A stretch of DNA of 48,044 nucleotides. It comes from Mycobacterium sp. DL440 (GTDB lineage Bacteria; Actinomycetota; Actinomycetes; Mycobacteriales; Mycobacteriaceae). The translations under genes and the position numbers were made by a program. Numbering within the stretch: position 1 is the stretch's first letter; each line of letters opens with the position of its first letter. The notes below the pieces were generated by a model. The model was not told where the DNA came from. It saw only the letters and a program-made list of their open reading frames with translations, and did not search any database. Below are positions 3,509-19,823 of the stretch, in pieces. The DNA is taken from the NCBI RefSeq assembly GCF_011745145.1, contig NZ_CP050191.1, positions 5,138,003 through 5,186,046 on the forward strand, given 5' to 3'.

Positions 3509-3961
3509 ATGTCTGACGCAGCCACTCAGATCGCGTTCGTGCAAGCCACCTGGCATCGCAGCATCGTCGACAAGGCCCGCGAGGGGTTCACCGAACAGAT
3601 CGGCACCCATGGCATCGCCGTCGATGCCCTGGCGTTCTTCGAGGTCCCCGGCGCGTTCGAAATCCCGCTCACCGCAAAGCGTCTGGCCCTCACCGGGCGG
3701 TACCGGGCGATCGTCGCGGCCGGACTCGTCGTCGACGGCGGCATCTACCGCCACGACTTCGTGGCCACCGCGGTGATCGACGGGCTGATGCGCGTGCAAC
3801 TCGACACCGACGTGCCGGTGTTCTCCGTCGTGCTCACCCCGCACCATTTCCACGAACACGACGAGCACATCGACTACTTCACCAAGCACTTCGTCAAGAA
3901 GGGCGCGGAGGCTGCCAACGCCGTCGCGGCCACCTTGGCGCTGCACAGCTCGCTGGATTAG
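3509..3961 (+). CDS. ribH: 6,7-dimethyl-8-ribityllumazine synthase, RibH2-like
   Basis: 150 aa, the normal length for lumazine synthase, which joins 5-amino-6-ribitylaminouracil and dihydroxybutanone phosphate in the penultimate step of riboflavin synthesis. Visible signatures are VPGAFEIPL (substrate loop), AAGLVVDGGIYRHDFVATAVIDGLMRVQ and SVVLTPHHFHEH. The GLVVDGGIYRHEF-type motif and the His-rich PHHFHEH loop are typical of the RibH2 (Brucella/Rhizobium type, decameric) group rather than the icosahedral RibH of the usual rib operon. No ribA, ribC or ribD gene is nearby, so this is probably a second, dispersed copy. Its 3' end overlaps the convergent fprA gene by 4 nt. Confidence 0.88.
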   Translation: MSDAATQIAFVQATWHRSIVDKAREGFTEQIGTHGIAVDALAFFEVPGAFEIPLTAKRLALTGRYRAIVAAGLVVDGGIYRHDFVATAVIDGLMRVQLDTDVPVFSVVLTPHHFHEHDEHIDYFTKHFVKKGAEAANAVAATLALHSSLD

Positions 3962-5319
3962 TCGCGCACCAGGGCGTCGCGGCCGGCTCGGATCATGTCC
4001 TCGCGTGCCACCACCTTGACGCGTTCGCGCGCCTGCACCTCGCCCAGCGACATCTCGTGAGCATCAAGACGTTCCCACTCCGCCCACGTGGTGTAGTCGA
4101 CATCGTTGGCCGCCAGATGCGCGAGTATCGCGTCAGGATCGGTGGTTTCGGGGGCCCGCAGGCCGGGCAGGTCGTTGAGCAGGCTCGCGACGGTTTCGGC
4201 CGCGTCGGATTTGGTGTGTCCGATCAACCCGATCGGTCCGCGTTTGATCCAGCCCGTCACGTAGGCGGCGTCGATCAATGCCCCATCGATATCGAGCACC
4301 CGTCCCGCGTCATTGGGCACCACGCCGGCGTGGTGGTCGAACGGCAGATCCGCCAGATGGGTAGATAGATAGCCGACCGCGCGGTACACGGCTTCGACCG
4401 GCCAATCGGTGAATTCTCCGGTCCCCCGGACATTCCCGTCCCCGCGAAGTTCGGTGCGCTCGGTCCGCAGTCCCTCGACCCGGTCCGTACCCAGCACCGC
4501 CACAGGCGACTGGCACAGATGCAGATGAATGCGGTGCGGTGCGCCCGTCGGCTCACGCTGCAGATACTTCATCATCGTGTCGACTACGAGTCTGGTCGAC
4601 TTGCTCGTGTTGATGGCCTGCTGGCTGGCTTCATCGATCTCGAAACCCTCGGGATGGACGACGACGTCGATGCTCGGCGAGTGCGACAGTTCACGAAACT
4701 CCATGGGGCTGAACTTGATCTGGGCCGGCCCGCGACGGGCGAACACGTGGACGTCGGTGGCCTGATTGGCGGCAAGGCCCTGGTAGACGTTGCCGGGAAT
4801 CTCGGTGCCGAGCTGCTCATCGGCCGGCTTGGCGAGCACCCGGGCGATGTCGAGTGCCACGTTGCCGGCTCCGAGTACCGCGACGTGCTTCGCCGTCAGC
4901 GGCCAGGTGCGGGGCACGTCGGGATGTCCGTCATACCAGGACACGAAGTCGGCGGCGCCGTAGCTTCCCGGCAGACCGATGCCGGGGATCTCGAGCGCCC
5001 GGTCAGCGCGCGCACCGGTGGAGAAGATCACGGCGTCGTAGTGGCAGCGAAGATCGGCCAGTCGGAGATCCGTGCCGTAGTGGACGTTGCCGATGAATCG
5101 CACGCTGTTCTCGTCCCGGGACAGCACCCGGCGCAGGGCCTTGATGATTTCCTTGATCCGCGGATGGTCCGGGGCGACGCCGTAGCGCACCAGTCCGTAC
5201 GGCGCAGGCAACCGGTCGAATACATCGACCCGCGCATCCTCGTACTCCTTGGTCAGGATGTCGGCGGCATAGATGCCCGCGGGACCCGCGCCGATGACTG
5301 CTACCTGGATCTTCCTCAT
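3958..5319 (-). CDS. fprA: NADPH-ferredoxin reductase, FprA type
   Basis: 453 aa. FAD- and NADPH-binding reductase of the adrenodoxin-reductase/FprA family, which passes electrons from NADPH to ferredoxins. It shows the FAD GxGxxG at the N-terminus (AVIGAGPAGIYAA), LPAPYGLVRYGVAPDHP, the NADP site AVLGAGNVALDIARVL, FARRGPAQIKFSPMEFREL and the C-terminal FAD contact TGWIKRGPIGLIGHTKSDA. M. tuberculosis FprA is 456 aa, so this is full length. I chose ATG 5319 (MRKIQVAVIGAG) over 5364 because the longer form would read through the IdeR box at 5336-5354. That box predicts induction under iron limitation. It could be an FprA paralogue rather than the housekeeping copy, since the usual prfB neighbourhood is absent. 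Confidence 0.9.
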   Translation of the reverse strand: MRKIQVAVIGAGPAGIYAADILTKEYEDARVDVFDRLPAPYGLVRYGVAPDHPRIKEIIKALRRVLSRDENSVRFIGNVHYGTDLRLADLRCHYDAVIFSTGARADRALEIPGIGLPGSYGAADFVSWYDGHPDVPRTWPLTAKHVAVLGAGNVALDIARVLAKPADEQLGTEIPGNVYQGLAANQATDVHVFARRGPAQIKFSPMEFRELSHSPSIDVVVHPEGFEIDEASQQAINTSKSTRLVVDTMMKYLQREPTGAPHRIHLHLCQSPVAVLGTDRVEGLRTERTELRGDGNVRGTGEFTDWPVEAVYRAVGYLSTHLADLPFDHHAGVVPNDAGRVLDIDGALIDAAYVTGWIKRGPIGLIGHTKSDAAETVASLLNDLPGLRAPETTDPDAILAHLAANDVDYTTWAEWERLDAHEMSLGEVQARERVKVVAREDMIRAGRDALVRD

Positions 5320-5335
5320 GACCACCCTTACGTAT

Positions 5336-5354
5336 TTAGGTAAGGCAAGCCTAA
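5336..5354 (-). promoter_or_regulatory. IdeR/DtxR iron box upstream of fprA
   Basis: TTAGGTAAGGCAAGCCTAA matches 16 of 19 positions of the mycobacterial iron box TTAGGTTAGGCTAACCTAA, with both outer half-sites TTAGG and CCTAA perfect. It ends 17 nt upstream of the fprA ATG at 5319, the position expected for a box overlying the promoter, and the only gene leading away from it is fprA. Confidence 0.8.
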
Positions 5355-5397
5355 GTAGATGCACGGTTCCCGCAAGTCCTCCCCTACGAGATCCCTG

Positions 5398-8433: not shown

Positions 8434-9681
8434 TCAACCCCGAGACAGCGCCGAATCGTTAGGTCCCCGCAATACAACCGGATCTGCCGGGGAGAACACG
8501 ACAGGGATCCGGCGGTAGCCCCGCGTCACGGAATTGCCATGGAACACCGGGGTGCCGCCGGGGTCCACGGTGACATCGGGCATCCGGGTCAACACCTGCT
8601 CAAGTCCGATGGCGAATTCCAGACGGGCGAGGTTGGAACCGAGGCACCGGTGTACTCCGGCGCCGAAACCGAGGTGGCGGTTGGCCGAGCGGTCCAGCAC
8701 GCAGCGGTCCGGATCGGGGAACTGGGTGGCATCCCGGTTGGCCGCGGCGTAGTTGAGCACAACGGCCTCGCCCGGGCAGAGCCGCTGTCCGCTCAATTCG
8801 ACGTCCTTCGCCACGGTGCGGGGCAGGCTGTGGATCGATCCGGCGAACCTGACGAACTCCTCGACAGCCCTCGGCAGGATCTCCGGCTCGGAGATCAGCC
8901 GGTCGCGTTCGCCAGGGTGGGTAGCCAGGTAGTGAAATGCGAAAGACATTGCGCTGGCGGTGGTTTCGAGACCCGCCTGGACCAGCAGGATGGCATTGGC
9001 GACGATGTCGTTGAACGGCAACGGTTCACCGTCGATCTCGGCGCGCAGCAGCACGTCGATCATGTCATCGCGCGGAGGTTCGCCGGTGCGGGCCGACACC
9101 GCATCGTGCAGATGCTGATAAAGCCGGCCCCAGGCCAGCATGCGGTCCTGCTCGACGGCGCCGTTGAGGGCGGTGTCGACCAACTCGAGGCACAACGGGA
9201 CGTCGCCGACGGGCATGCCGAGCAGATATTTGAAGAACACGATGCCGGGTTGCTGCCAGGCGACCCGGGCAAGATCCCCTTGCCCCTGTTCGATGAACGC
9301 GTCGATCAGCAGGTCGGTCTCGGCCCGGATCTGCGGTGTCAGAGCCTTCATCCGCGCCGGGGAGAAGTACGGGTTGAGCACTTTGCGGAACTTCTGCTGC
9401 CGCGGCGGGTCGAGGGTGATCACCAGGTCACCGCCGGCCTGCCGGGCGCCCTCGGGGGTCGGGTTGCTGGAGAAGTGCTCCCAATCCTGCGCAATCCGAT
9501 AGCACTCGTCATAGCCCAGTGCGACCCACGCACCGTCGGTGGGGAAGAACGGCGCCTCGGTGTGTGTGATCGGCGTCTGTTGGCGCATCACCGAATACAC
9601 CTCGTACAACAGGTCGTGATCGTTGAAGTCCTCGTGGCGCAGGTCCCAGTTACGCGCGTGCTCGTCGGGCGACTTGGGCAT
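8434..9681 (-). CDS. cytochrome P450
   Basis: 415 aa, a full-length bacterial class I P450. It shows the I-helix oxygen-activation motif AGLETTA near residue 235, where Glu replaces the usual Asp/Glu-Thr partner pattern as AG-x-ETT, the K-helix ExxR in EEFVRFAGS/EPEILPRAVEEF, and the heme-binding loop FGAGVHRCLGSNLAR with the thiolate Cys near residue 346. Substrate is unknown, and no ferredoxin or reductase gene is adjacent. Its ATG directly abuts the stop of the 139-aa membrane protein (stop 9682-9684, ATG 9681), so translation is coupled and it belongs to the NorQ/NorD cluster. It may oxidise the same substrate as, or a product of, the membrane components; that is inference. Confidence 0.9.
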   Translation of the reverse strand: MPKSPDEHARNWDLRHEDFNDHDLLYEVYSVMRQQTPITHTEAPFFPTDGAWVALGYDECYRIAQDWEHFSSNPTPEGARQAGGDLVITLDPPRQQKFRKVLNPYFSPARMKALTPQIRAETDLLIDAFIEQGQGDLARVAWQQPGIVFFKYLLGMPVGDVPLCLELVDTALNGAVEQDRMLAWGRLYQHLHDAVSARTGEPPRDDMIDVLLRAEIDGEPLPFNDIVANAILLVQAGLETTASAMSFAFHYLATHPGERDRLISEPEILPRAVEEFVRFAGSIHSLPRTVAKDVELSGQRLCPGEAVVLNYAAANRDATQFPDPDRCVLDRSANRHLGFGAGVHRCLGSNLARLEFAIGLEQVLTRMPDVTVDPGGTPVFHGNSVTRGYRRIPVVFSPADPVVLRGPNDSALSRG

Positions 9682-10101
9682 CTACTTGCCCTGTTCCTGG
9701 GTCTGGCGGGCCACGCGTTCCTCGTGACGGCGCACCAGCTCGCGGAAGCCCAACCGGTCATACTTCGGCGTGGGCTGGATACCCCACTCATCGCGGGCGG
9801 TGTCCTTACCCTCGGCACCTTCGGGAGGTCCGAACATCGGGTAGGGGTGCTTGCATTCGAGCGTGTCGTCGGAGTAGCGGACCTTCAGCAGCTCGCTGCA
9901 GATCTGGGTCATGCTCAGCGTCGGATAGCCGTAGTAGACAGCCATGAAGGGCAACGTGAACGCGCCTTCGACGACGAGGGCGACCAGGCACACCAACACG
10001 GCCCGCTTGATCCATTTGTGCATGTTCGCGTAGTACGGGGTGGTGCCCGGCGGTAGATCCTGGGCCGGGTCTGTTTCAGTGCTCTCTACGGGGCTCGACA
10101 C
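9682..10101 (-). CDS. single-span membrane protein of the P450/NorQD cluster
   Basis: 139 aa, GTG start at 10101 with AAGGAG about 8 nt upstream. After a short cytosolic N-terminus there is one long hydrophobic segment ([26 protein letters not shown], residues about 34-59), then a soluble C-terminal domain of about 80 residues with two Cys ([24 protein letters not shown]) and a charged tail. It has no recognised family and no heme c motif, so it is not NorC. Position between the multi-span paralogue and the P450 suggests a subunit of the same membrane assembly. Confidence 0.75.
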
Positions 10102-10122
10102 AATGCGCTCCTTGGAAGATAT

Positions 10123-10818
10123 TCAGTCGGAGAAGATTTCGCGGTTGACCGTGTGCAGGTAAGGGATCGCCAGGAACGGCGTGATGTAGAAGATGTCGTA
10201 GAGCCACCAGCCGATCACGGGGAAGATCACCCCGGCGTAGCGGACGTCGGCGAACATCGTCATGTTGAAGACATAGACGCACCAGATCACCACGCCCATC
10301 CAGCAGGTGACGATCATCCACTGGTGGCCCCAGCGCTTCATCTGCAGGAAGCCGATGGCGGCGGCGCAACGCATCGCGAAGACCGTGATGATCATGCCGA
10401 ACACCATCGACTTCTCACCCGGCCCAGCCGAGCCGCCGACCCACAGTTCGTTGTAGTGCCAGAAGTAGCCGGCGTCGAACATGTTGCCCCAACCGACCAT
10501 CAGCACCCGGTTGATCAGAGTGTGGTTGGCCACCAGGTCCAATGCCCACCCCAGGCTGTTGAGCGCACCGTCGATCAGCACCAGGTAACCGATCAGCGTG
10601 ACGATCATCGGCCGCACCGACAATCCCGCGCGCTGGGCCTGGCGCTGCAGCCAGACCCCGCGCATGAAGATCGGGAACCCGATCAGGCCCGGAATCCACA
10701 TGCCCATCAACAGCGCCCCGACGATCATCCACTTGTCGGCCCGGCGCTGGGCGAGCCGGGACTCCTCGTGGTGATCTTCGAGGGACACCGAAGCTTCCTG
10801 GGACAGTGGGAGACTCAC
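10123..10818 (-). CDS. multi-span membrane protein, paralogue A
   Basis: 231 aa from GTG 10818, which overlaps the preceding microprotein stop as GTGA; TTG 10830 and GTG 10827 are alternatives. About six hydrophobic segments are visible. Polar residues conserved with paralogue B (13477-14205) include GNMFDAGYFWHYNELWVGG in mid-protein, MKRWGHQWMIV and the C-terminal PYLHTVNREIF. Asp, His and Glu placed beside membrane segments could bind a metal. I do not recognise the family. The adjacent NorQ/NorD pair, of a type that loads or activates metalloenzymes in other systems, makes a membrane metalloprotein plausible but unproven. The last 230 nt of the gene are 97% identical to paralogue B, unlike the rest. 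Confidence 0.8.
   Translation of the reverse strand: MSLPLSQEASVSLEDHHEESRLAQRRADKWMIVGALLMGMWIPGLIGFPIFMRGVWLQRQAQRAGLSVRPMIVTLIGYLVLIDGALNSLGWALDLVANHTLINRVLMVGWGNMFDAGYFWHYNELWVGGSAGPGEKSMVFGMIITVFAMRCAAAIGFLQMKRWGHQWMIVTCWMGVVIWCVYVFNMTMFADVRYAGVIFPVIGWWLYDIFYITPFLAIPYLHTVNREIFSD
10124..10357. repeat. direct repeat copy 1: 234-bp near-identical segment of paralogue A
   Basis: This segment, the 3' third of the membrane gene at 10123-10818, aligns without gaps to 13478-13711 with about 6 mismatches in 234 positions (near 97% identity). The remaining parts of the two genes have diverged far more. The pattern suggests recent gene conversion or strong constraint on this domain. Confidence 0.85.
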
Positions 10819-10943
10819 AGCTCCCACCAACCTCGGGCGAACGACATGTACATCTGGATGCAGAACATCGCGAACAGGTAGCCGTAGATGACCACCTGCA
10901 GAACGATCAATGCCCGCTTGCGCTTTCGCTCTTGTTCGTTCAT
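10815..10943 (-). CDS. 42-aa single-span membrane microprotein
   Basis: 42 aa: a basic N-terminus (MNEQERKRKRALI) followed by one hydrophobic helix (VLQVVIYGYLFAMFCIQMYMSF) and ARGWWEL. The start ATG (10943-10941) shares a base with the stop codon of the NorQ-like gene. Its own stop overlaps the GTG of paralogue A (GTGA), so it is inserted into a chain of coupled genes, strong evidence that it is translated. It has the look of a small accessory subunit of a membrane enzyme. No homologue is known to me. Confidence 0.72.
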   Translation of the reverse strand: MNEQERKRKRALIVLQVVIYGYLFAMFCIQMYMSFARGWWEL

Positions 10944-11782
10944 CAGAATCCCTTTCCTGGAGGTTGCGTCGAGCCGTCGAGCAGACCGGCCGCCGCGACT
11001 TCGCGCAGCCCGTCGTTGATGGCCCCGTCCGTGCTCAGCGGTGCCAGCACGCAGGCCTCGGCGGCCTCCAATTCGGAGGCGCCTTCCGCGACCAGCTGCG
11101 CGGCAGTGACCAGCACGCGGGTCGAGGGCGGCTCGAAGTGGAACGCGGCGTCGGCGCTGCGAATCGCGGTGGCGCAGGCCACCAGGCGCGCTGCGGTATC
11201 ACGGCCCACACCGGTTTCCGCGACAATCACCGCAGCCTCGCGCTCGGGCGGCAGATAGGCCATCGGCAGGGTGACAAACCGTTGCCGGAATGAGGGTTTG
11301 AGTTCCTTGAGCGAGCTGCGGTAGGCCGGGTTGTACGAGCACACCAGCATGAAGGTCTCCGGGGCAGCCACCACCTCGCCGGCCCGATCGAGGTACAGCG
11401 CACGACGATGATCGGTGAGCGAATGCAGGATGGCCAGTGAATCGTGGCGGGCTTCGACAACCTCATCGAGGTAGCAGATGGCGCCGGCCTTGACCGCACG
11501 GGTCAGCGGCCCGTTGGTCCACACCACGTCGCCTCCGGTGACCATGAACCGGCCGACCAGATCCGAGCTGGTGAGGTCGTCATGGCAGCTGATCGTCACC
11601 ACCGGGCGCTGCAGCAACGCGCCCATGTGCTCAACGAGGCGAGTCTTGCCGCAACCGGTAGGCCCGGTCAGCATCACCGGGATCCGGCGGGCGTAGGACT
11701 GCTCGAACAGCTGAATCTCGTTGCCGTTGGCGAAGTATGTGGTTGGACCCGCTCCGGCGGCGACCATGTGCCCAGTACTCAT
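10943..11782 (-). CDS. MoxR-class AAA+ ATPase, CbbQ/NirQ/NorQ family
   Basis: 279 aa. AAA+ ATPase with Walker A GPTGCGKT (residues 40-47), Walker B AICYLDEV (101-108), sensor 1 CSYNP (148-152) and an arginine-finger region SFRQRF near 164. Family members (NorQ, CbbQ) act with a VWA partner to insert a metal into, or reactivate, a target enzyme (NO reductase, Rubisco). The NorD-like partner is directly upstream in the transcript, 16 nt away. No NO reductase or Rubisco gene is present, so the client is probably the membrane protein set encoded beside it. Confidence 0.88.
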   Translation of the reverse strand: MSTGHMVAAGAGPTTYFANGNEIQLFEQSYARRIPVMLTGPTGCGKTRLVEHMGALLQRPVVTISCHDDLTSSDLVGRFMVTGGDVVWTNGPLTRAVKAGAICYLDEVVEARHDSLAILHSLTDHRRALYLDRAGEVVAAPETFMLVCSYNPAYRSSLKELKPSFRQRFVTLPMAYLPPEREAAVIVAETGVGRDTAARLVACATAIRSADAAFHFEPPSTRVLVTAAQLVAEGASELEAAEACVLAPLSTDGAINDGLREVAAAGLLDGSTQPPGKGF

Positions 11783-11798
11783 TCAGTTCCTTCCGTCC

Positions 11799-13322
11799 TC
11801 ACGCCGCGACCAACTCGCGATGAACATGCGCCAGCACGCGCGGTAGCTCCTCGACGCGGCGGATCCGTTGGGACCGCCGGGGTCCGAACACCTCGGGCAA
11901 CGGGTCGACGCGGGCCGGCCCGACGCCCACGTAGTACACGGCGACACCGGCGTCGTTGGCCTCCTCGACCGCGTGCGCGGTATCCGCCCAGGCGTAGCGG
12001 CCCTCGTAACCCTCGTCGGAGATGAGCCCGTCGCCGATGACGATGAGCAGACGCCGCTCCGACGGTTGGGCCAGCAGCCGACTGGTCAGGTGTCGCACCG
12101 GCGCGCCCAGGCGGGTGTATCCGCCGGTGACCAGTCCGGCCGCACTCGGCGGGACGAACCGTCGATCCTCGAAGTCCTTGAGACACTGCACTTCCACTCG
12201 GTGACGGGTGTTGCCGGTGAACACGAAGATGCCGTGACGCTCCCGGGCGTGGGTCATCGCCTGGGACAACGCATCCGCACAGGCCAATTCCAGCCGGAAG
12301 ATCCGCCCACCGTGCACGCCCAGCGACGAACTGCCGTCGAGGAGCAGCGCGGTGGACACGTCCCGGCTGGTGGGCAACAACTCCCGGAACACCCGGGGCT
12401 CTCCGGCTTCGCCGGTGGCCAGGTCGATGTGGTGGCGGACATAAGAATCCACGTCCAGGTCCGAGCCATCCTCCAGACGACCGGTCATCGCCCGGTGGGT
12501 GTGTTCGGAGAACCAGGCCCGCAGATCGGCCGGCACCGGCGCAGACTGGCGGCCGCGCGGGGGCTTGGCGTGCTCGACGACGGCCACGTGATCGCGCAGG
12601 AAACTGTCGGTCCACGCGTTCCACTCCGGATACGGAATTCCCGGCCGGTGCTGCGGGGTGACGTCGAGATCGTTGTCCTGCGGCCGGCTGGGCGGCGGGA
12701 GGTTGGGATTGCGCACTCCGCCGTCCCCGCCGACCGGCACGGAATAGGGTCTGGGCAGGCGCTTTTGGGTGCTGGTCCACGGCATCCGGCCGAACCTGCG
12801 GCGCAACCCGTCCGTCAGTCCGGCCGGCGCGGTGTGGGCCACGGGCAGCCGGCCCAGCAGCGCGTCGACGTCGAGCGGTCCGCCGCCGCGGGCCAGCTCC
12901 ACCGCCCGTCGCAGCATTTCGGCGGCCGGCAGGTCGGCATCGGAGGATTCCAATTCCGGTAACAGTCTTCGGATTTCGGTGACCAGGCCGGGCCACCGGA
13001 CGGCGATCCAGGCCAGCGCCACCTCGGCCTCGACCAGGGTCAGGGCCTGCAACTCCCGGCCGGACAGCTCGCCCAGCCGATAGTGCACCAGCCGGTCCTT
13101 CGACGGCGCGCACTGCAGTGCCACACCGCAGGTCAGCGATCGCCTGGTCCACGTGGTGACGCCAGGCGGGTACGGCACGTGCACAAAGTCGAGTGCCGCG
13201 TTCAGCCCGAAAGCGCGGTGCTCACCGGTGACCAGCCGCACCCCGGCACGGCGGCCGCCGCTGAGCGCAACGGCGGTCAGCGCGCAGCTGCGCTCGACGG
13301 TGATCGCGTCGTTGTCGGCCAT
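11799..13322 (-). CDS. NorD-like von Willebrand factor A protein
   Basis: 507 aa. The C-terminal VWA domain has an intact MIDAS: ALLLDGSSSLG (DxSxS, near residue 327), the Thr in GGYTRLGAP and the Asp in VIGDGLISDEGYEG. The N-terminal 300 residues are helical and variable with a Pro-rich linker (NLPPPSRPQDND), as in NorD/CbbO. No signal peptide or membrane segment is visible, so it is cytosolic. With the NorQ-like ATPase it should form an AAA+/VWA activator complex. ATG 13322 follows the stop of the 32-aa microprotein by 4 nt. Confidence 0.86.
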   Translation of the reverse strand: MADNDAITVERSCALTAVALSGGRRAGVRLVTGEHRAFGLNAALDFVHVPYPPGVTTWTRRSLTCGVALQCAPSKDRLVHYRLGELSGRELQALTLVEAEVALAWIAVRWPGLVTEIRRLLPELESSDADLPAAEMLRRAVELARGGGPLDVDALLGRLPVAHTAPAGLTDGLRRRFGRMPWTSTQKRLPRPYSVPVGGDGGVRNPNLPPPSRPQDNDLDVTPQHRPGIPYPEWNAWTDSFLRDHVAVVEHAKPPRGRQSAPVPADLRAWFSEHTHRAMTGRLEDGSDLDVDSYVRHHIDLATGEAGEPRVFRELLPTSRDVSTALLLDGSSSLGVHGGRIFRLELACADALSQAMTHARERHGIFVFTGNTRHRVEVQCLKDFEDRRFVPPSAAGLVTGGYTRLGAPVRHLTSRLLAQPSERRLLIVIGDGLISDEGYEGRYAWADTAHAVEEANDAGVAVYYVGVGPARVDPLPEVFGPRRSQRIRRVEELPRVLAHVHRELVAA

Positions 13323-13326
13323 CGGC

Positions 13327-13425
13327 TCAGAACGTGCCGATGTTCGAGAACATCCAGTACCAGAACCAGATGATCAGGGCGGTGCCGCCCCAAGCGCCGA
13401 TGTAGCGGCAGATCTCCCAGAGCAT
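13327..13425 (-). CDS. 32-aa single-span membrane microprotein
   Basis: 32 aa, one hydrophobic helix rich in Trp and aromatic residues (MLWEICRYIGAWGGTALIIW then FWYWMFSNIGTF). A strong Shine-Dalgarno AGGAGG sits 5 nt before the ATG, and the stop lies 4 nt before the NorD ATG, so expression and coupling are likely. Like the 42-aa protein downstream, it may be a small subunit of the membrane complex. No family is recognised. Confidence 0.7.
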   Translation of the reverse strand: MLWEICRYIGAWGGTALIIWFWYWMFSNIGTF

Positions 13426-13452
13426 GTGCCCTCCTCGTCGGGTAGAAATCTC

Positions 13453-13464
13453 TGACTTCAGTCA
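13453..13464. promoter_or_regulatory. operator-like palindrome TGACTNNAGTCA, site 2
   Basis: TGACTTCAGTCA is an inverted repeat of TGACT around 2 nt, located 28 nt upstream of the 32-aa gene. The same motif occurs at 14240-14251 ahead of paralogue B. Two occurrences at promoter positions of one cluster suggest a shared regulator, most simply the TetR protein at 14290-14889. Confidence 0.55.
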
Positions 13465-13476
13465 ATATTTGTGCAC

Positions 13477-14205
13477 TCAGTCGGTGAAGATCTCGCGGTT
13501 GACCGTGTGCAGGTAAGGGATCGCCAGGAACGGCGTGATGTAGAAGATGTCGTAGAGCCACCAGCCGATCACGGGGAAGATCACCCCGGCGTAGCGGACG
13601 TCGGCGAACATCGTCATGTTGAACACATAGCCGCACCAGATCACCACGCCCATCCAGCAGGTGACGATCATCCACTGCTGCCCCCAGCGCTTCATCTGCA
13701 GGAAGCCGATGCCCGCAGCAATCCGCATGGTGAAGACAGTGAGGATGAGGGCGACCTCCCAGGCCTTCTCCCCCGGCCCGCCGGCGCCGCCCACCCACAG
13801 CTCGTTGAAGTGCCAGAAGTAGCCGGCGTCAAACATGTTGCCCCAGCCAGTCAAAAGCACTCTCGCCAGCAGGGAGTGGTTCCCGATCAGGTCCAGCGAC
13901 CAACCCATCGCGTTGATCGCGGCGTCGATGATGACCAGGTAGCCGAGCAGGGTGACCATCATCGGCCGCACCGACAGTCCGTCACGCTGCGCACGACGGA
14001 GCAACCACACACCGCGCAGGAAAATGGGCAGCCCGAAGATGCCGAGGACGGCGCTGCCGATCAGTAGCGATCCGACGATCAGCCACTTGTCGGCCTGTCG
14101 TTGTGCAGTCCGGGACTGCTCGTCATGGTCGGCAGAGGCTTGGCCGCGCAGGCCGTCGCCGCCCGCGATGGCGGTGCGACGAAGCCTGAGAGTCGGCAGA
14201 TTCAA
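13477..14205 (-). CDS. multi-span membrane protein, paralogue B
   Basis: 242 aa from a TTG at 14205 with AGGAGG 4-5 nt upstream. It aligns along its full length with paralogue A: QADKWLIVGSLLIG, GLSVRPMMVTLLGYLVIIDAAINAMGW, GNMFDAGYFWHFNELWVGG, MKRWGQQWMIVTCWMGVVIWCGYVFNMTMFADVRYAGVIFPVIGWW and PYLHTVNREIF are shared. The His after MKRWG in A is Gln here. About six membrane segments are visible. It is the first gene of the cluster, with the TGACTATAGTCA palindrome in its leader. Family and activity are unknown; a heteromeric pair with paralogue A is likely. Confidence 0.8.
   Translation of the reverse strand: MNLPTLRLRRTAIAGGDGLRGQASADHDEQSRTAQRQADKWLIVGSLLIGSAVLGIFGLPIFLRGVWLLRRAQRDGLSVRPMMVTLLGYLVIIDAAINAMGWSLDLIGNHSLLARVLLTGWGNMFDAGYFWHFNELWVGGAGGPGEKAWEVALILTVFTMRIAAGIGFLQMKRWGQQWMIVTCWMGVVIWCGYVFNMTMFADVRYAGVIFPVIGWWLYDIFYITPFLAIPYLHTVNREIFTD
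13478..13711. repeat. direct repeat copy 2: 234-bp near-identical segment of paralogue B
   Basis: Partner of the repeat at 10124-10357, same orientation, 3354 bp away. It encodes the C-terminal 77 or so residues of the membrane protein. Direct repeats of this length could support recombination deleting the norQ/norD segment between them. Confidence 0.85.
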
Positions 14206-14289: not shown

Positions 14290-14889
14290 CTACGGCGTCA
14301 GGCTGCGCATGGTCCTGACCACGTAGTCGTCCAGCAGGGCGTCGCGGGTCGGCCAATCGTTGGTGGTGATCAGCAGGGCGTAGAAGCCGAGCAGGAAGAA
14401 GACCGCACTGTTCCAAGGGTTGACGTCGGCGGCGACCTCGCCCTGCTGCTGGCCCGCCTCGATCTCGCGCGCCACCCCGGAGATCACCGGGTGCTCCTGA
14501 CTGTCCGACGCAGGGGGACGAGTCTGCGAGAAGTGCAGGGCGAGAAAATCTTTGAACAGGATGCCGCCGAGCCGGCGTTCCAGGCCGACAACCAGCCGCA
14601 TCGACTCGCGCAGCCCATCCTCCAGGCTGTGCGGTTTCTTGAGGAATTGGGCGTACTGCTTGGCGATGCGCACTTCTTCGCGCTGCTCGAGTTCCAGCAG
14701 CACATGCTCCTTGGTGGGGAAGTGGAAGAAGAACGTGCCGTGCGCGACACCCGCCGCAGTCACGATCGTGCCCACGTCCGCTTCCGCCATCCCGGCACGC
14801 TTGAACTCGGCGATCGCCGCACCCATCAACCGCTCACGCGTCTGCAGGCGCTTCGCCTCGCGCGCAGACAGCCCGTCTGCCACAGCCAT
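14290..14889 (-). CDS. TetR/AcrR family regulator, probable controller of the NorQD/P450 cluster
   Basis: 199 aa. N-terminal HTH is clear (RLMGAAIAEFKRAGMAEADVGTIVTAAGVAHGTFFFHFPTKEHVLLELEQ, residues about 21-70, with GTFFFHFPTKEHVL as the TetR signature). The C-terminal ligand domain is unassigned. It is encoded immediately upstream of, and in line with, paralogue B, with an 84-nt gap holding palindrome site 1, and 48 nt downstream of the MoxR operon. Regulation of the P450/NorQD cluster through TGACTNNAGTCA sites is inferred from position and the duplicated motif. Confidence 0.88.
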   Translation of the reverse strand: MAVADGLSAREAKRLQTRERLMGAAIAEFKRAGMAEADVGTIVTAAGVAHGTFFFHFPTKEHVLLELEQREEVRIAKQYAQFLKKPHSLEDGLRESMRLVVGLERRLGGILFKDFLALHFSQTRPPASDSQEHPVISGVAREIEAGQQQGEVAADVNPWNSAVFFLLGFYALLITTNDWPTRDALLDDYVVRTMRSLTP

Positions 14890-14937: not shown

Positions 14938-15624
14938 CTATCCCGTGGCCGCATCGCGCAGGATCTGTTGCAGCCGGTCCAACGGATCACCGACGGTCGG
15001 GTCGAGCCGATTCCGCGGCTGTGTGGTGGGCGTACCCGCCGTTGCCGGAGGCGGTGGCTGGGCGACCGGAGGAGGGGTGGACACCGGTGGCGGCGAGATC
15101 GCCGAGGCGGCGTCGATCTTGCTGTTCAACCTTCCCAGCGCGTCGTTGCGGATGGCTCGCCGATCCGGGTCCGGGTCATTGTTGCCCGCGAAGCATCCGC
15201 CGGCGGCCCTTTCCACCACATCCCGGGCGGCCAGGTAACGGGCCACTGCCAGTTCAGGCTCGGCCGCCGCAATCGCCCGGTCGCCGAGGGTCTCACGGAC
15301 AAGCTCCAGATCCACCCTGGCCGAACATGACTCATCGGCGCCGAGTCGGGCCACTGCCGCCCTGAAATGTCGGTCGGCGTCGTCGAGCCGGTTCTCCAGA
15401 ACAGCCAGAGCGCCTGCGGCATGTTCCGCCTTGCCCGGCTGGACGATATCGAGCACCCGAAGCCTGGCCACGTCGCCTGCCATCGCCTCGGTATCGCGGT
15501 CGGCGAAACTGTTAGCCGCTGAGTGGCCGATCACCACCACCGACAGCAGCTTGACGACGGCGATCAGCACTACCAGCACCACCGGTGCCGAGTAAAGCAG
15601 CAGCCTGCGCCGCACCCGGTTCAT
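14938..15624 (-). CDS. membrane-anchored hypothetical protein ending the MoxR operon
   Basis: 228 aa. One N-terminal hydrophobic anchor (LLLYSAPVVLVVLIAVVKLLSVVVIG, residues about 8-33), then a helical domain resembling a tetratricopeptide-like region (AEHAAGALAVLENRLDDADRHFRAAVARLG, LAVARYLAARDVVERAAGG) and a Pro-rich tail (PPPVSTPPPVAQPPPP). Two Cys (ESCSAR, GGCFAG) may pair outside the membrane. TPR proteins often close bacterial MoxR/BatABCD operons. ATG 15624 overlaps the stop of the preceding VWA gene as ATGA. Confidence 0.78.
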   Translation of the reverse strand: MNRVRRRLLLYSAPVVLVVLIAVVKLLSVVVIGHSAANSFADRDTEAMAGDVARLRVLDIVQPGKAEHAAGALAVLENRLDDADRHFRAAVARLGADESCSARVDLELVRETLGDRAIAAAEPELAVARYLAARDVVERAAGGCFAGNNDPDPDRRAIRNDALGRLNSKIDAASAISPPPVSTPPPVAQPPPPATAGTPTTQPRNRLDPTVGDPLDRLQQILRDAATG

Positions 15625-16538
15625 GTTCCCGGCTCCAGATCGATCGACTGCATGCGACGGAATCCCCGCAGCACCAGATAGAGCTCGATCAGGATGAGCA
15701 GCGCGGCGACCCCGGCGAAAACCCAGTACAACTCGACGGCGGCGCGGTCCGGAACAGCGACGGGGCTCTGGCTCGGACTCTTGTCGGCGGGTAACGCAAC
15801 CTCCAACGGTGTCACGCCGGCCCGCGGCACGAACGGCACGCCGATCTGCTCGGCGACTCCCCGCAGCGCCTGGGTGCCGGCATTTCCGTAGCCCAGCACC
15901 GCGCCGCCGTCCACGGCATCCTCGGGCAGCTCGAACTCCCGTTGCGGCGCTTGTGAATCGGGCGCGCCGGCGCCGAGATAGAACACCAGGTTCTGCGCCC
16001 TGGGGAACTGCTGTACCGCGCTGATCAGCTGGTAGCGCAGCACGCTGGCGGCCGCGCCGACATTGGCGCCCGGCGTCGCCGCGTACGCGTCCGTCGCGGC
16101 CAGCACCGGCCGCAGACTCCAGGTATCGGCCGACAGCGGCCACACCACCGACGGGCGATCGGCGAAACCGATCAGGGCGAACCGGGCGTCGGGATACCGT
16201 TCGATCAGTGACGCGACATCGTCGCGGGCCGCCGCCATCCGGGACCGGCCATCGGCGCCACGCTGCGACATCTCCGGCGAACGGTCCAGGAGCACAAAGA
16301 TGTTGGGGTCCCGGTCGCCGGCCGGCCGGGGCACGGCATCGTGGCTCCCGCCTACGGTGGGGCCGAGCGCTGCCACCAGTAGGAGTACGCCGGCCGCGGT
16401 CAGCGATGACCAGCGCCACACCGAGGCCCAGCCACCACCCTGCGCCCTGACCCGCCCGAACGTGAGCACCCGCGCCGCGACGAGCACCACCGTGAGCACC
16501 GCGAGTAGCAGTGGCGGCAGGACCGGTTCCAGGCTCAT
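15621..16538 (-). CDS. BatA/BatB-like membrane VWA protein (degenerate MIDAS)
   Basis: 305 aa. Two N-terminal membrane segments (PPLLLAVLTVVLVAARV and LTAAGVLLLVAALGPTV), a VWA domain beginning NIFVLLDRSPEMSQRG near residue 80, and a C-terminal membrane segment (YWVFAGVAALLILIELYLVL). The MIDAS DxSxS is altered to DRSPE, so metal binding may be weak or lost. The layout matches Bat proteins that accompany MoxR ATPases. ATG 16538 overlaps the preceding stop as ATGA. Confidence 0.8.
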   Translation of the reverse strand: MSLEPVLPPLLLAVLTVVLVAARVLTFGRVRAQGGGWASVWRWSSLTAAGVLLLVAALGPTVGGSHDAVPRPAGDRDPNIFVLLDRSPEMSQRGADGRSRMAAARDDVASLIERYPDARFALIGFADRPSVVWPLSADTWSLRPVLAATDAYAATPGANVGAAASVLRYQLISAVQQFPRAQNLVFYLGAGAPDSQAPQREFELPEDAVDGGAVLGYGNAGTQALRGVAEQIGVPFVPRAGVTPLEVALPADKSPSQSPVAVPDRAAVELYWVFAGVAALLILIELYLVLRGFRRMQSIDLEPGT

Positions 16539-17494
16539 TGCCGCATCACCACCGGCCACCACCACAGCACTGCCAACGCCAGCAACGCCAGTACCACGGG
16601 CACCGCCGGGGTTTCGGCGGAGACGACGTCCGCGGTATCGCCGGTCGTTCCGGCCTGCGGCGGATGGTCCCGGATCTGCGTCAGATGTTCGGCTGTATCG
16701 CCCGATCCGAACCATCTCCCTCCGGTGCTGCGCGCCAGGTCCGCGACGGCCCCCTCACCGGATCCGAGCGTGATCGCATTGACCTGAACCCCTGCCGTCA
16801 CCGCCAGGTCCCGGAGGCGATCCTCGGTGAACAGCGGTACTGATTGCCCTGAGTCGGGCAGGGATTCGGGGCCGACGTAGATCAGCGAACGTCGCTGCGC
16901 GGATTTCTCCTCGAAGGACGGGAAGCCGGTCAGGCACATGGCCAGCACGTCCTGGACGCCGGCGGCGTAATCGACGTAGGACACCGGTGCCACCAACGGC
17001 CTGGCACCGTCCTGCCGGCCGACCGCGGCGAATTGTGCTGCGGCGTACTGATAATCCCGGGTCATCGGGATGACGCGGCGGTTTGCCGAGGTCAGCCCGA
17101 TCCGCTCGGTTCCGAAGGTGCCGGCCCGCTCGGCGAAATACTGCAGGGCGGCGCTGACTGCCGGGTCGGTCACCGGGGCGCCGGCGCACACCATGATGTC
17201 CTCCGGTGTCGCCACCTGGGTGGTGCGGGTCCACGACGGCAGCCCGGTGGGACGCGCGGCAGCCAGAACGGATCCCGCGAAGGCGGCCGTCAGCAGCACC
17301 ATGGCGACTACGGCGGCGATGGTCCGCAGCCGCGCGGTCCGCACGTACTCGGGCAGTCGGGTGAGCCGCCCGGTGTTGGCCAGTGGCCTGAGCCGCTCCG
17401 GGTCCATCGGTTGCCGCAACAGCAGGGCGAGGCCCACGCACCCGGCGAGTGCGAGGCACCCGGTGATCGCCACCACCCACCAGATCAGGTCCAT
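16535..17494 (-). CDS. membrane VWA-like protein of MoxR operon
   Basis: 319 aa. Membrane segments are at the N-terminus (IWWVVAITGCLALAGCVGLALLL), near residue 60 (IAAVVAMVLLTAAFAGSVLAAA) and at the C-terminus (VPVVLALLALAVLWWWPVVM). The domain between them follows a VWA pattern but begins EDIMVCAGAPV, without DxSxS, so it is a degenerate VWA. It pairs with the next VWA gene, a common arrangement in MoxR loci. It overlaps the upstream gene by 10 nt. Confidence 0.76.
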   Translation of the reverse strand: MDLIWWVVAITGCLALAGCVGLALLLRQPMDPERLRPLANTGRLTRLPEYVRTARLRTIAAVVAMVLLTAAFAGSVLAAARPTGLPSWTRTTQVATPEDIMVCAGAPVTDPAVSAALQYFAERAGTFGTERIGLTSANRRVIPMTRDYQYAAAQFAAVGRQDGARPLVAPVSYVDYAAGVQDVLAMCLTGFPSFEEKSAQRRSLIYVGPESLPDSGQSVPLFTEDRLRDLAVTAGVQVNAITLGSGEGAVADLARSTGGRWFGSGDTAEHLTQIRDHPPQAGTTGDTADVVSAETPAVPVVLALLALAVLWWWPVVMRQ

Positions 17495-17958
17495 CCGCGG
17501 ATCAACTCCTCGGCGGTGTCGCTGGCCGTGCCGGCATCGAGCGCCGAACGATGGTTGAACTGAATGTCGGTGAGCTCGGCCAGGATCGGCGCGGCTGGTG
17601 CAGCCGAGCTTTCCGCGATGGCGTCGACCTGCAGGTACTGGGCCTGCACCCCGGTGGCGGCGTGCAGGAAGGCGCGGAGTTCCCGGCTCAGCGCCGCCCC
17701 GGTGCCCGCTGCGCTCAGATTACCTGCGCGGTAACGGTTTCCGATGCGACGGACCGTGCGGGCCGATCGGCGCCGTAGGAGTTCCCCCCGTGCGGCACCG
17801 ACCATGGGCAGGTCGCGCACCGAACGGCGCCGCGATGTCAGCACGAAGACTGCCGCATACCATGCGCACAGCAGCAGGATCAGGCCGATCGCGGTCCACA
17901 GCCACACCGGCGAGTAGGGCGTCGGACCGATCACATGGCGCAGCAGGTCATCCGGCAC
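17485..17958 (-). CDS. small membrane protein of MoxR operon (DUF4381-like)
   Basis: 157 aa, GTG start. One membrane helix (VWLWTAIGLILLLCAWYAAVFVL, residues about 18-40) precedes a basic, helical cytosolic domain (SVRDLPMVGAARGELLRRRSARTVRRIGNRYRAG, then SRELRAFLHAATGVQAQYLQVDAI). Position between DUF58 and VWA genes and size fit the DUF4381-type proteins found there. It overlaps the DUF58 gene by 11 nt. Confidence 0.72.
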   Translation of the reverse strand: MPDDLLRHVIGPTPYSPVWLWTAIGLILLLCAWYAAVFVLTSRRRSVRDLPMVGAARGELLRRRSARTVRRIGNRYRAGNLSAAGTGAALSRELRAFLHAATGVQAQYLQVDAIAESSAAPAAPILAELTDIQFNHRSALDAGTASDTAEELIRGWT

Positions 17959-18814
17959 GGGCGTACACCCCGGTCATCGCTGTCAAGGCGGTCCGGATCC
18001 GCAGACTGCCGGGGATCCTGGCGTGTGGTATCCGCTGCAGGGTCAGAAACTCGGAAAGCTGTTCGCGCCGTCGCGCTTCGGCGCGCAGGTAGGCCTCGAC
18101 GACGTCACGGTCCAGGTCGGCCAGGATCGGGCGGCCGTCAGCGATCTCGTAGCTGCGGCCGGTGTCCCGGTGCCCGCTCAACGCGGGCATGTCGCCGATC
18201 AACGCCCACAGCACGTCGTGGCGGGCGGTCAGCGGGCGCAGCACCTCGGCCAACCGGTCGGTGACCTCCGGTTCGTCGGACACCACGAAGATCAACAGCC
18301 GGTGCCGGTAGTGGCGGGCCACCCATTCGAGCTGAGCCAGGATGTCGCTTGGGCCGGGGTGATCGGTGGCGTGGTGATGGAACCGGTGCAGCATGCTCTC
18401 GATATGGGTCTCGCCGCGGCGCAGCCGGATGTCCACGGTGCCGCGTTGGTCGCCGAGCACCATCGCGATTTCGTCGGACCGGGGCTGCGTCATCAATCCG
18501 ATCCCGCCGATGATGTTCAGCGCCACAGTTCTTTTCAGCTCGCCGGACGGCGCCAGTGCGCCACTGTTACGGCCGGCGTCGGCGACCACCAGCACCTTGT
18601 GGTGCTTTTCGGAGACGAACCGCTTGATCAGCGTGTGCCCGGAGCGCGCCGTGGCCTTCCAGTCGATGTCGCGGACATCGTCGCCGGGGACGTAGGGCCG
18701 CAGCTCGTCGAACTCCAGGCTGCGGGTATGTACCAGGGCGTAGCGGCCACCCTCGAGCAGACCGCCTGCGTCGCGGCCGACATACGCCTTGGCGGAGTCC
18801 AGATACCTGCCCAT
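17948..18814 (-). CDS. DUF58 domain protein
   Basis: 288 aa. It contains the DUF58 signature SLEFDELRPYVPGDDVRDIDWKATARSG (residues about 32-59), followed by a VWA-like Rossmann region (VLVVADAGRNSG). DUF58 proteins are near-universal partners of MoxR ATPases; their molecular role is not settled. ATG 18814 (MGRYLDSAKAYVGRDAGG) is chosen. An upstream extension to 18865 would run into the MoxR stop at 18822 and looks non-conserved. Confidence 0.88.
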   Translation of the reverse strand: MGRYLDSAKAYVGRDAGGLLEGGRYALVHTRSLEFDELRPYVPGDDVRDIDWKATARSGHTLIKRFVSEKHHKVLVVADAGRNSGALAPSGELKRTVALNIIGGIGLMTQPRSDEIAMVLGDQRGTVDIRLRRGETHIESMLHRFHHHATDHPGPSDILAQLEWVARHYRHRLLIFVVSDEPEVTDRLAEVLRPLTARHDVLWALIGDMPALSGHRDTGRSYEIADGRPILADLDRDVVEAYLRAEARRREQLSEFLTLQRIPHARIPGSLRIRTALTAMTGVYARAG

Positions 18815-18821
18815 CGCGGCC

Positions 18822-19823
18822 TCACGGGACCTGCACCGCACGCAACACCGCGTCGACGATGCCATCGGGGGTGACCCGGGCGGTGGCCGCCTCGAACCCG
18901 AGGATCAGCCGGTGCCGCAGCACGCGGTGCGCCAAGCGGGCGATGTCGTCGGGAACCACATGGTCGCGGCCGCGCAGCACTGCCAGCGCCCGGGAAGTCC
19001 GGCAGAAGGCCAGCGTGGCCCGCGGGCTGGCCCCGTACTCGATCAGCCGCGCCAGGTTCGCCGGCAGGTAATGCCCGGGTTCGCGGGTGACGGCGACCAG
19101 TCGGCCGGCGTACTCGACGAGCGCGCGATCCAGGTACACCGACCGAACGATGGATTGGGCGCGACGCACGTCGTCGATCGTGACGACCGGATCCGCGCGG
19201 TGATCCCGGTCGTAGAGACCGGCGTCCATCCGGGCGGCGATCTCTACCTCCTCGTCGATCGAGGGGTAGCCCACGATCTCCTTGAGCATGAACCGGTCGG
19301 TCTGGGCCTCCGACAGCGGATACGTGCCTTCCTGGTCGACAGGGTTCTGGGTGGCGATGACCAGAAACGGTTCGGGAATGGGATATTCGACGCCGGCGAT
19401 CGTGGTCTGGCGTTCCTGCATAGCCTCCAGCATGGCGCTCTGGGTCTTGGCGCTGGAGCGGTTGATCTCGTCGAGCAACACGATGTTGGCGTGCACGGGG
19501 CCCAGCTGCGTGGCGAACGAGTTGTGCGCGGCCTCGTAGATCTGGGTGCCGATGATGTCGCTCGGCAACAGATCGGGTGTGCACTGGATGCGCCGGAAAC
19601 TGGCGTCGATGGACTCGGCCATCACCCGGGCCGCGGTGGTCTTCGCCAACCCGGGGACGCTCTCGATCAGCAGGTGTCCTCCGGCGAGCAGCGCCACCAA
19701 CATCGATTCGCGAAGGTGATCCTGCCCGACCACCCGGGAGGAGAATGACGAGGTCACCGCGCCCGCGATGCGCTGGGCTTCGGCGGCGTCGCGCTGGTCA
19801 GCCTGTAATCGCGGTGCCGTCAT
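18822..19823 (-). CDS. MoxR family AAA+ ATPase
   Basis: 333 aa. Walker A ESVPGLAKTT (residues 54-63), Walker B NIVLLDEINRSS (113-124), sensor 1 VIATQNPVDQEGTYPL and Arg-rich AQTDRFM. MoxR ATPases are chaperone-like motors that mature or assemble complexes with VWA partners. The start overlaps the stop of the MmpL gene (ATGA at 19820-19823), so transporter and ATPase are translated as a unit, which is not the usual MoxR context. Confidence 0.92.
   Translation of the reverse strand: MTAPRLQADQRDAAEAQRIAGAVTSSFSSRVVGQDHLRESMLVALLAGGHLLIESVPGLAKTTAARVMAESIDASFRRIQCTPDLLPSDIIGTQIYEAAHNSFATQLGPVHANIVLLDEINRSSAKTQSAMLEAMQERQTTIAGVEYPIPEPFLVIATQNPVDQEGTYPLSEAQTDRFMLKEIVGYPSIDEEVEIAARMDAGLYDRDHRADPVVTIDDVRRAQSIVRSVYLDRALVEYAGRLVAVTREPGHYLPANLARLIEYGASPRATLAFCRTSRALAVLRGRDHVVPDDIARLAHRVLRHRLILGFEAATARVTPDGIVDAVLRAVQVP

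Follow-up and report, generated by a model that had tools for sequence, protein, structure and literature searches.

The 48,044 nt of Mycobacterium sp. DL440 analyzed here (contig NZ_CP050191.1, positions 5,138,003 to 5,186,046; this whole stretch is called the window below) contain a cluster of eight open reading frames (ORFs) on the minus strand between positions 8434 and 14205. The cluster encodes two six-span membrane proteins (A and B), a one-span protein, two one-span microproteins, a NorQ-like AAA+ ATPase, a NorD-like VWA protein, and a cytochrome P450 (Table 1). All eight ORFs were confirmed exactly where an earlier annotation, made from the sequence alone (the original prediction), had placed them. 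From six-span protein A to the P450, the intergenic gaps are 51, 4, 16, −1, −16, 21, and 0 bases, and this tight spacing is operon-like. The results described below show that in many mycobacteria these membrane proteins come with a NorQ/NorD-type motor of their own, and that the six-span proteins very probably are what this motor serves. Neither the six-span proteins of the window nor its one-span protein and microproteins had an above-cut-off match in Pfam or NCBIfam, and a description of the cluster was not found among the literature matches listed, which were often far fewer than the total matches and left subscription journals largely uncovered.

Table 1. Genes of the NorQ/NorD membrane protein cluster and its upstream regulator gene (positions in the window)
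Feature	Position	Strand	Remarks
Six-span membrane protein A	13477..14205	-	242 aa, TTG start; paralogous to six-span protein B; clade A in the tree
32-aa one-span microprotein	13327..13425	-	79/80 loci, same stop
NorD-like VWA protein	11799..13322	-	507 aa; DxSxS-T-D MIDAS pattern
NorQ-like MoxR-class AAA+ ATPase	10943..11782	-	279 aa; AAA_5 + CbbQ_C
42-aa one-span microprotein	10815..10943	-	80/80 loci, length to the stop constant at 42 aa
Six-span membrane protein B	10123..10830	-	235 aa; family-invariant D87, N91, W95, D119, E139, R154
One-span protein	9682..10101	-	139 aa; two conserved Cys in the C-terminal part
Cytochrome P450	8434..9681	-	415 aa; optional, window type in 38/80 loci
TetR-family regulator	14290..14889	-	directly upstream; TetR match in 77/80 loci

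The assignments of the motor proteins in the original prediction held. The NorQ-like protein has the Walker A motif GPTGCGKT and matches AAA_5 (127 bits, cut-off 22) and CbbQ_C (74.7 bits, cut-off 20.6) in Pfam; with Walker A/B motifs in AAA_5 and both families above their cut-offs, it is a member of the CbbQ/NirQ/NorQ group of MoxR-class AAA+ proteins. The NorD-like protein carries the residues DGSSS...T...D, read from the translation, which form the pattern of a metal-ion-dependent adhesion site (MIDAS), and its VWA score of 22.3 bits is slightly lower than the Pfam cut-off of 23.8. A C-terminal VWA domain with a MIDAS pattern, encoded 16 bases from NorQ, places it among the NorD/CbbO/CoxE-type proteins. 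The P450 matches PF00067 with 99 bits (cut-off 22.8) and has the heme-binding Cys motif FGAGVHRCLG (read from the translation); its closest relative in the PDB is labelled CYP125MRCA, at only 184 bits. Elsewhere in the window, a pyridine nucleotide-disulphide oxidoreductase that appears ferredoxin-NADP reductase-like by eye is encoded at 3958-5364 (minus strand) and is a possible redox partner of a P450.

To characterize the distribution of the cluster, the GTDB contigs were scanned with a pattern, and a relative of six-span protein B was found to be encoded in 316 stretches; 80 loci, all from Mycobacteriaceae, were kept. The original prediction had suggested a survey for constant co-occurrence of the eight genes. 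NorQ, NorD, the 42-mer, and the one-span gene accompany the six-span gene in 80/80 loci, and six-span A and the 32-mer are present in 79/80, the exception (L063) being cut by a contig end. The P450 of the window type was found in only 38 of the 80 loci and is thus an optional, not a fixed, partner. Relatives of the six-span proteins were found in 6 of 296 genomes of a sample of the phylum, in 28 of 348 genomes of the order, and in 119 of 218 genomes of the genus; none were found in the viral collection. In the class of the outlier genome G121, 3 of 199 genomes matched; two of these matches, of which one was inspected, were weak and are regarded as chance. In its order, 1 of 232 genomes encodes a six-span relative. 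Among plasmid records, no NorD match spanned 80% of the protein, and the best 20 of 253 matches cover only residues from about 196 on.

At the level of whole genomes, the coupling is nearly complete. A six-span gene is present in 119 of the 218 genus genomes and NorD (E ≤ 1e-60) in 116, and every genome with NorD also has a six-span gene. The three six-span genomes left over are G989 (84% complete) and G1123, which contain six-span fragments, and G1041 (100% complete), which encodes one six-span protein of the M. branderi type, 85% identical to P0012, and has no NorD at E ≤ 1e-30. A complete main-clade six-span copy lacking NorD is absent from the 218 genomes; a divergent subfamily can lack it. 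The original prediction had regarded membrane genes that never accompany NorQ/NorD as evidence against a client relationship, and such a separation was seen only in the divergent G1041 and in the fragments of G989 and G1123. Because of this near-complete co-occurrence and the constant linkage of the genes, the six-span proteins are very probably the client of this NorQ/NorD pair, as originally proposed.

Both microproteins are genuine genes, because their stops are kept across homologues and the fewest substitutions occur at codon position 2. The stop is common to 79/79 ungapped homologues of the 32-mer and to 80/80 of the 42-mer. Position 2 is the least variable codon position in both genes, with 0.043 substitutions per site versus 0.346 at position 3 for the 42-mer, and 0.090 versus 0.244 for the 32-mer. 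For the 32-mer, many species have a start codon two codons further upstream.

The two six-span proteins are 74% identical, in line with the predicted paralogy, and form two clades in the tree, where A plus B are joined at 86/85, short of strong support. They arose by a duplication in mycobacteria. In three genomes outside the genus (G050, G713, and G748), a single six-span gene shares its locus with the genes for NorD, NorQ, the one-span protein, and the two microproteins. Extra six-span copies exist in L160, L161, and L162; they are adjoined by the 42-mer and one-span genes, and no NorQ/NorD match was found within the 19 kb examined. Since these orphan copies keep the 42-mer and the one-span protein but not NorQ/NorD, the small proteins look like subunits of the client. 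This points to a client complex that would consist of the six-span protein, the one-span protein, and the microproteins, and from which the motor would be separable. An 82-aa protein encoded on the M. branderi plasmid looks, by eye, like a microprotein joined to the one-span segment.

The genomic setting was analyzed by a census of the neighbours in the 80 loci, for which simple GC-based gene calls and a clustering from our own script were used and families were named via scanned members. DapB/DAP_DH_C-like dehydrogenases are encoded in 65 loci and short-chain dehydrogenases/reductases (SDRs) in 45; 44 loci have a P450 of a second family, and 27 encode a protein of about 140 aa that has no Pfam match and appears glyoxalase-like by eye. 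Other six-span genes are adjoined by genes for a KshA-like Rieske oxygenase (L204) or for a luciferase-like monooxygenase and an amidohydrolase (L205), or lie near a carboxyltransferase gene together with genes that by eye encode an acyl-CoA dehydrogenase and a ligase (L199). On the M. branderi plasmid (L104), a mycofactocin-coupled SDR, a GMC protein, and aldehyde dehydrogenases are encoded near the six-span gene. From these kinds of neighbouring genes, we infer a setting of oxidative catabolism of hydrophobic compounds.

Several additional observations concern the surroundings of the cluster and of its divergent relatives. The TetR gene directly upstream of the cluster belongs to the neighbourhood and probably regulates the cluster. 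It is abutted by a second, different MoxR/VWA-type module (14938-19823, minus strand), which contains genes for a MoxR-like AAA protein (18822-19823, AAA_5 match), a VWA protein (15621-16715), and, by eye, a DUF58-like protein (17948-18865) and a membrane protein (16535-17494); by eye, the 3' part is TPR-like. The mycobacterial genome G1167 encodes a second, divergent set of NorD (39-40%), NorQ (55%), and P450 (L200 6665-10636, L199 6750-7677), which lies in a region of CoA-ligase/carboxylase genes together with a divergent six-span gene. In the G121 system, a further multi-span protein lacking an above-cut-off Pfam match is encoded next to the P450 (L099 6865-7719).

What kind of protein the client is can be approached via its conserved residues. 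In an alignment of 16 six-span proteins (35-42% identity to the first row; numbering of P0003), the charged or amide residues kept in every row are R73, D87, N91, D119, E139, R154, and R197; W95 and Y215 are invariant too, along with several G, P, and W residues. No His is invariant. The same Asp/Asn/Glu/Arg set is kept in the branderi-type relative of G1041, the genome without this NorD. The AlphaFold2 model of a six-span protein (mean predicted local distance difference test score, pLDDT, of 68) has six long helices and one short helix, in agreement with the originally proposed six spans, and the helices include residues 75-100, 139-162, 168-192, and 196-228; a second model has a pLDDT of 65.

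The family matched by some divergent six-span proteins is the sterol-isomerase superfamily EXPERA (PF05241, EBP in Pfam; curated cut-off 25.7 bits). Two divergent members match it below this cut-off and in the same C-terminal register: residues 139-227 of P0011 match positions 24-111 of 113 (E 0.0014, 19.4 bits), and residues 119-224 of the L199 protein match positions 9-110 (E 0.0024, 18.6 bits). In addition, a hidden Markov model (HMM) was built from human EBP, human TMEM97, TMEM97 of PDB 7m93, and three bacterial EXPERA proteins (the EBP and human TMEM97 sequences having been checked), and scores were controlled with 1000 class-preserving shuffles per sequence. P0011 scored 25.2 bits, which none of its 1000 shuffles equalled; the numbers of shuffles scoring as high were 0 for L202 and L160, 1 for L199 and L161, and 4 for L205. 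According to the available text of PMC4263179, EXPERA proteins have a four-helix core, and the conserved acids are E80 and D108 in EBP. Mapped by eye, the spacing of 28 between N91 and D119 equals that of E80 and D108, and D119-x2-Y122 parallels D108-x2-Y111 of EBP. Also by eye, the invariant D87/N91, D119, and E139 appear to lie in a register compatible with E80/D108 (and E122) of EBP. A relationship of the six-span family to EXPERA is probable, though not established. The family was not filed under EXPERA because the curated PF05241 cut-off was tested and not reached. Bacterial EXPERA proteins with PF05241 above the cut-off are encoded in other actinobacteria (L137 1468-1992, L138 1336-2070, L157 1300-1842), and the L138 gene adjoins, by eye, an epimerase/3-beta-HSD-like gene.

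We consider it about an even bet (probability roughly 0.5) that the cluster encodes an EXPERA-like membrane enzyme for the catabolism of hydrophobic compounds and, with it, a NorQ/NorD motor dedicated to this enzyme. The six-span protein, present in mycobacteria as the A/B duplicate, would form a small integral-membrane enzyme complex with the one-span protein and the two microproteins, and would most likely comprise an EXPERA-like four-helix core (helices 3-6) preceded by two extra N-terminal helices. D87, D119, and E139 would perform acid-base chemistry such as isomerization or dehydration, the substrate being a hydrophobic molecule of a catabolic pathway that resembles a sterol or terpenoid, and P450s, SDRs, and related enzymes may process the same or neighbouring compounds. 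NorQ, as an AAA+ hexamer, and NorD, as a VWA adaptor whose MIDAS holds the client, would spend ATP to assemble, open, or reactivate the complex. A similar division of labour has been proposed for the NO reductase cNOR, for which the available text of PMC9976466 describes that NorD binds the membrane client via its MIDAS and NorQ drives remodelling.

Several observations weigh against the EXPERA-like enzyme. PF05241 was matched by just 1 of 14 members in one scan and by 1 of 6 further members in another, both below the cut-off, and the six-span proteins of the window had no PF05241 match in the Pfam scan. With the EXPERA HMM, 10 of 16 members, including both window proteins, were within the range of their shuffles (at least 23 per 1000), P0003 being equalled by 94 and P0008 by 795 of 1000. 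The reverse test was no better: a six-span HMM scored the six EXPERA sequences no higher than shuffles (110-984 per 1000), and with a smaller six-span HMM, 51-845 of 1000 shuffles scored as high for four EXPERA sequences. The profile-profile comparison of the two families was weak (P 0.034). Fold searches with both weak AlphaFold2 models gave no clear match to any fold; a known transporter fold was likewise not found, the models being too weak to exclude one. A branderi-type relative is present in a genome lacking such a NorD (G1041). Furthermore, the studied clients of NorQ/NorD and CbbQ/CbbO are cNOR and Rubisco, and a metal-free client using acid-base chemistry would be unusual.

One alternative is that the six-span complex acts as a membrane-bound metalloenzyme, such as an oxygenase, and receives its metal from NorQ/NorD, along the lines of the membrane metalloenzyme suggested originally. 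This explanation is possible, yet clearly less likely than the EXPERA-like enzyme. It would fit the setting of oxidative catabolism, and insertion of FeB into cNOR is the task of the studied NorQ/NorD pair according to the available text of PMC9976466. All close mycobacterial members have H103, H125, and H226. However, the His residues of the WHxNELW and PYLHTVNRE motifs, which the original prediction had taken to suggest that the membrane proteins are the client, are not kept throughout the family: in G121 (L099) and G1167 (L199/L200), the most divergent systems with NorQ/NorD nearby, position 125 is Asp and position 226 is Tyr, and the G1167 protein also lacks H103. In addition, the invariant set persists in the G1041 relative, and no match to AmoC/PmoC or another metalloenzyme family was found in Pfam, nor, for the window proteins, in NCBIfam. 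Thus, the argument first given for a metalloenzyme is not supported; metal loading as such is still conceivable because the invariant D87, D119, E139, and N91 could bind a metal.

An improbable alternative is that the six-span proteins, without catalysing a reaction, transport a hydrophobic substrate or act as its receptor and are again remodelled by NorQ/NorD. Small multi-span proteins with one-span partners would be compatible with such a role, the sterol-binding TMEM97 is among the EXPERA relatives, and Mce-like genes were seen by eye near one orphan six-span copy (L203). However, the window proteins have no above-cut-off match to a transporter family in Pfam or NCBIfam, the invariant acids appear, by eye, to be positioned as in isomerases, and the neighbours are enzymes in many species. 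It is very improbable that NorQ/NorD act in trans on the quinol-type NO reductase (qNOR) of the genome and that the membrane genes are bystanders: a qNOR-like protein (PF22085 + PF00115) is indeed encoded at G000:C1 3643387-3644718 (L209), but this is about 1.5 Mb from the window, and NorQ/NorD co-occur almost perfectly with the membrane genes and are always interleaved with them, which speaks against this alternative. In the cluster itself, a NO reductase client is missing, as originally noted, with neither NorB nor NorC found among the nine window ORFs scanned against Pfam and NCBIfam.

The genome contains further NorQ/NorD pairs. Among the best 8 of 25 AAA_5 matches, which were fetched and compared, two more NorQ-like proteins (46-48% identity) were found besides that of the window. 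Each has a VWA (NorD-like) protein encoded beside it, and each cluster includes an AveC-like membrane protein (PF17198; E 1.3e-93 and 1.3e-64). In L210 (8457-12222; G000:C1 ~5532456-5536221), the AveC-like gene overlaps NorQ, NorD follows, and the cluster includes a Rieske ring hydroxylase. In L211 (7491-12595; G000:C1 ~3297490-3302594), genes for the AveC-like protein, a periplasmic binding protein, NorQ, and NorD are arranged in a row, and by eye the neighbours include P450, SDR, aldehyde dehydrogenase, and acyl-CoA dehydrogenase-like genes. Therefore, each of the three NorQ/NorD pairs found in this genome is accompanied by a multi-span membrane protein. AveC catalyses spiroketalization and dehydration, according to the available text of PMC13303154. 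Kinship between the six-span proteins and AveC was not detectable: for each of the 16 members, at least 76 of 1000 shuffles scored as high with an AveC HMM, and PF17198 was not matched in the Pfam scans. As a tentative and rather unlikely generalization, NorQ/NorD may have radiated in actinobacteria into motors dedicated to maturing or reactivating membrane enzymes that catabolize sterol- or terpenoid-like compounds by acid-base chemistry and without a metal, EXPERA-like in the six-span case and AveC-like at the two other loci of this genome. If so, these enzymes would be a new class of NorQ/NorD clients, and the six-span complex would be a bacterial, multi-subunit, ATP-tended branch of EXPERA.

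To our knowledge, few clients of MoxR-type motors are known. The cluster presents a genetically dedicated and widely conserved one that has no family name and is made of small subunits, and it may reveal a new job for NorQ/NorD-type motors. An EXPERA-like enzyme would link the superfamily of the animal sterol isomerase to bacterial lipid breakdown and would show that these motors tend non-metal enzymes as well; a metalloenzyme would be a new one. Environmental soil mycobacteria would allow a direct test under either reading. According to the available text of PMC9976466, MoxR-type motors belong to the AAA+ proteins that have been studied least.

Four known systems can be compared with the cluster. 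In the cNOR module of Paracoccus denitrificans, as far as described in the available text of PMC9976466, a CbbQ/NirQ/NorQ-type AAA+ protein and a VWA/MIDAS partner are likewise encoded with an integral membrane client. In contrast, the client of the present cluster is not NorCB; a heme-copper subunit is absent from the cluster, whose membrane proteins are instead of the six-span and one-span types and include a pair of microproteins. The AveC-like spirocyclases of the same genome (PF17198) are similar in being multi-span membrane proteins encoded with NorQ-NorD in catabolic clusters, but share no significant sequence similarity with the six-span proteins. Copper membrane monooxygenases also combine a small multi-span subunit (AmoC/PmoC) with one-span partners in an oxidative context; the cluster ORFs, however, gave no AmoC/PmoC-type or AmoA/AmoB match in Pfam or NCBIfam. 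The EXPERA proteins (the sterol isomerase EBP, TMEM97, and TM6SF; PDB 6oht and 7m93), as far as they are covered by the available sources, may resemble the six-span proteins in the register of the four-helix core and, by eye, in the placement of the acids, whereas the six-span proteins would have two extra N-terminal helices and are encoded in a bacterial operon together with an AAA+ motor.

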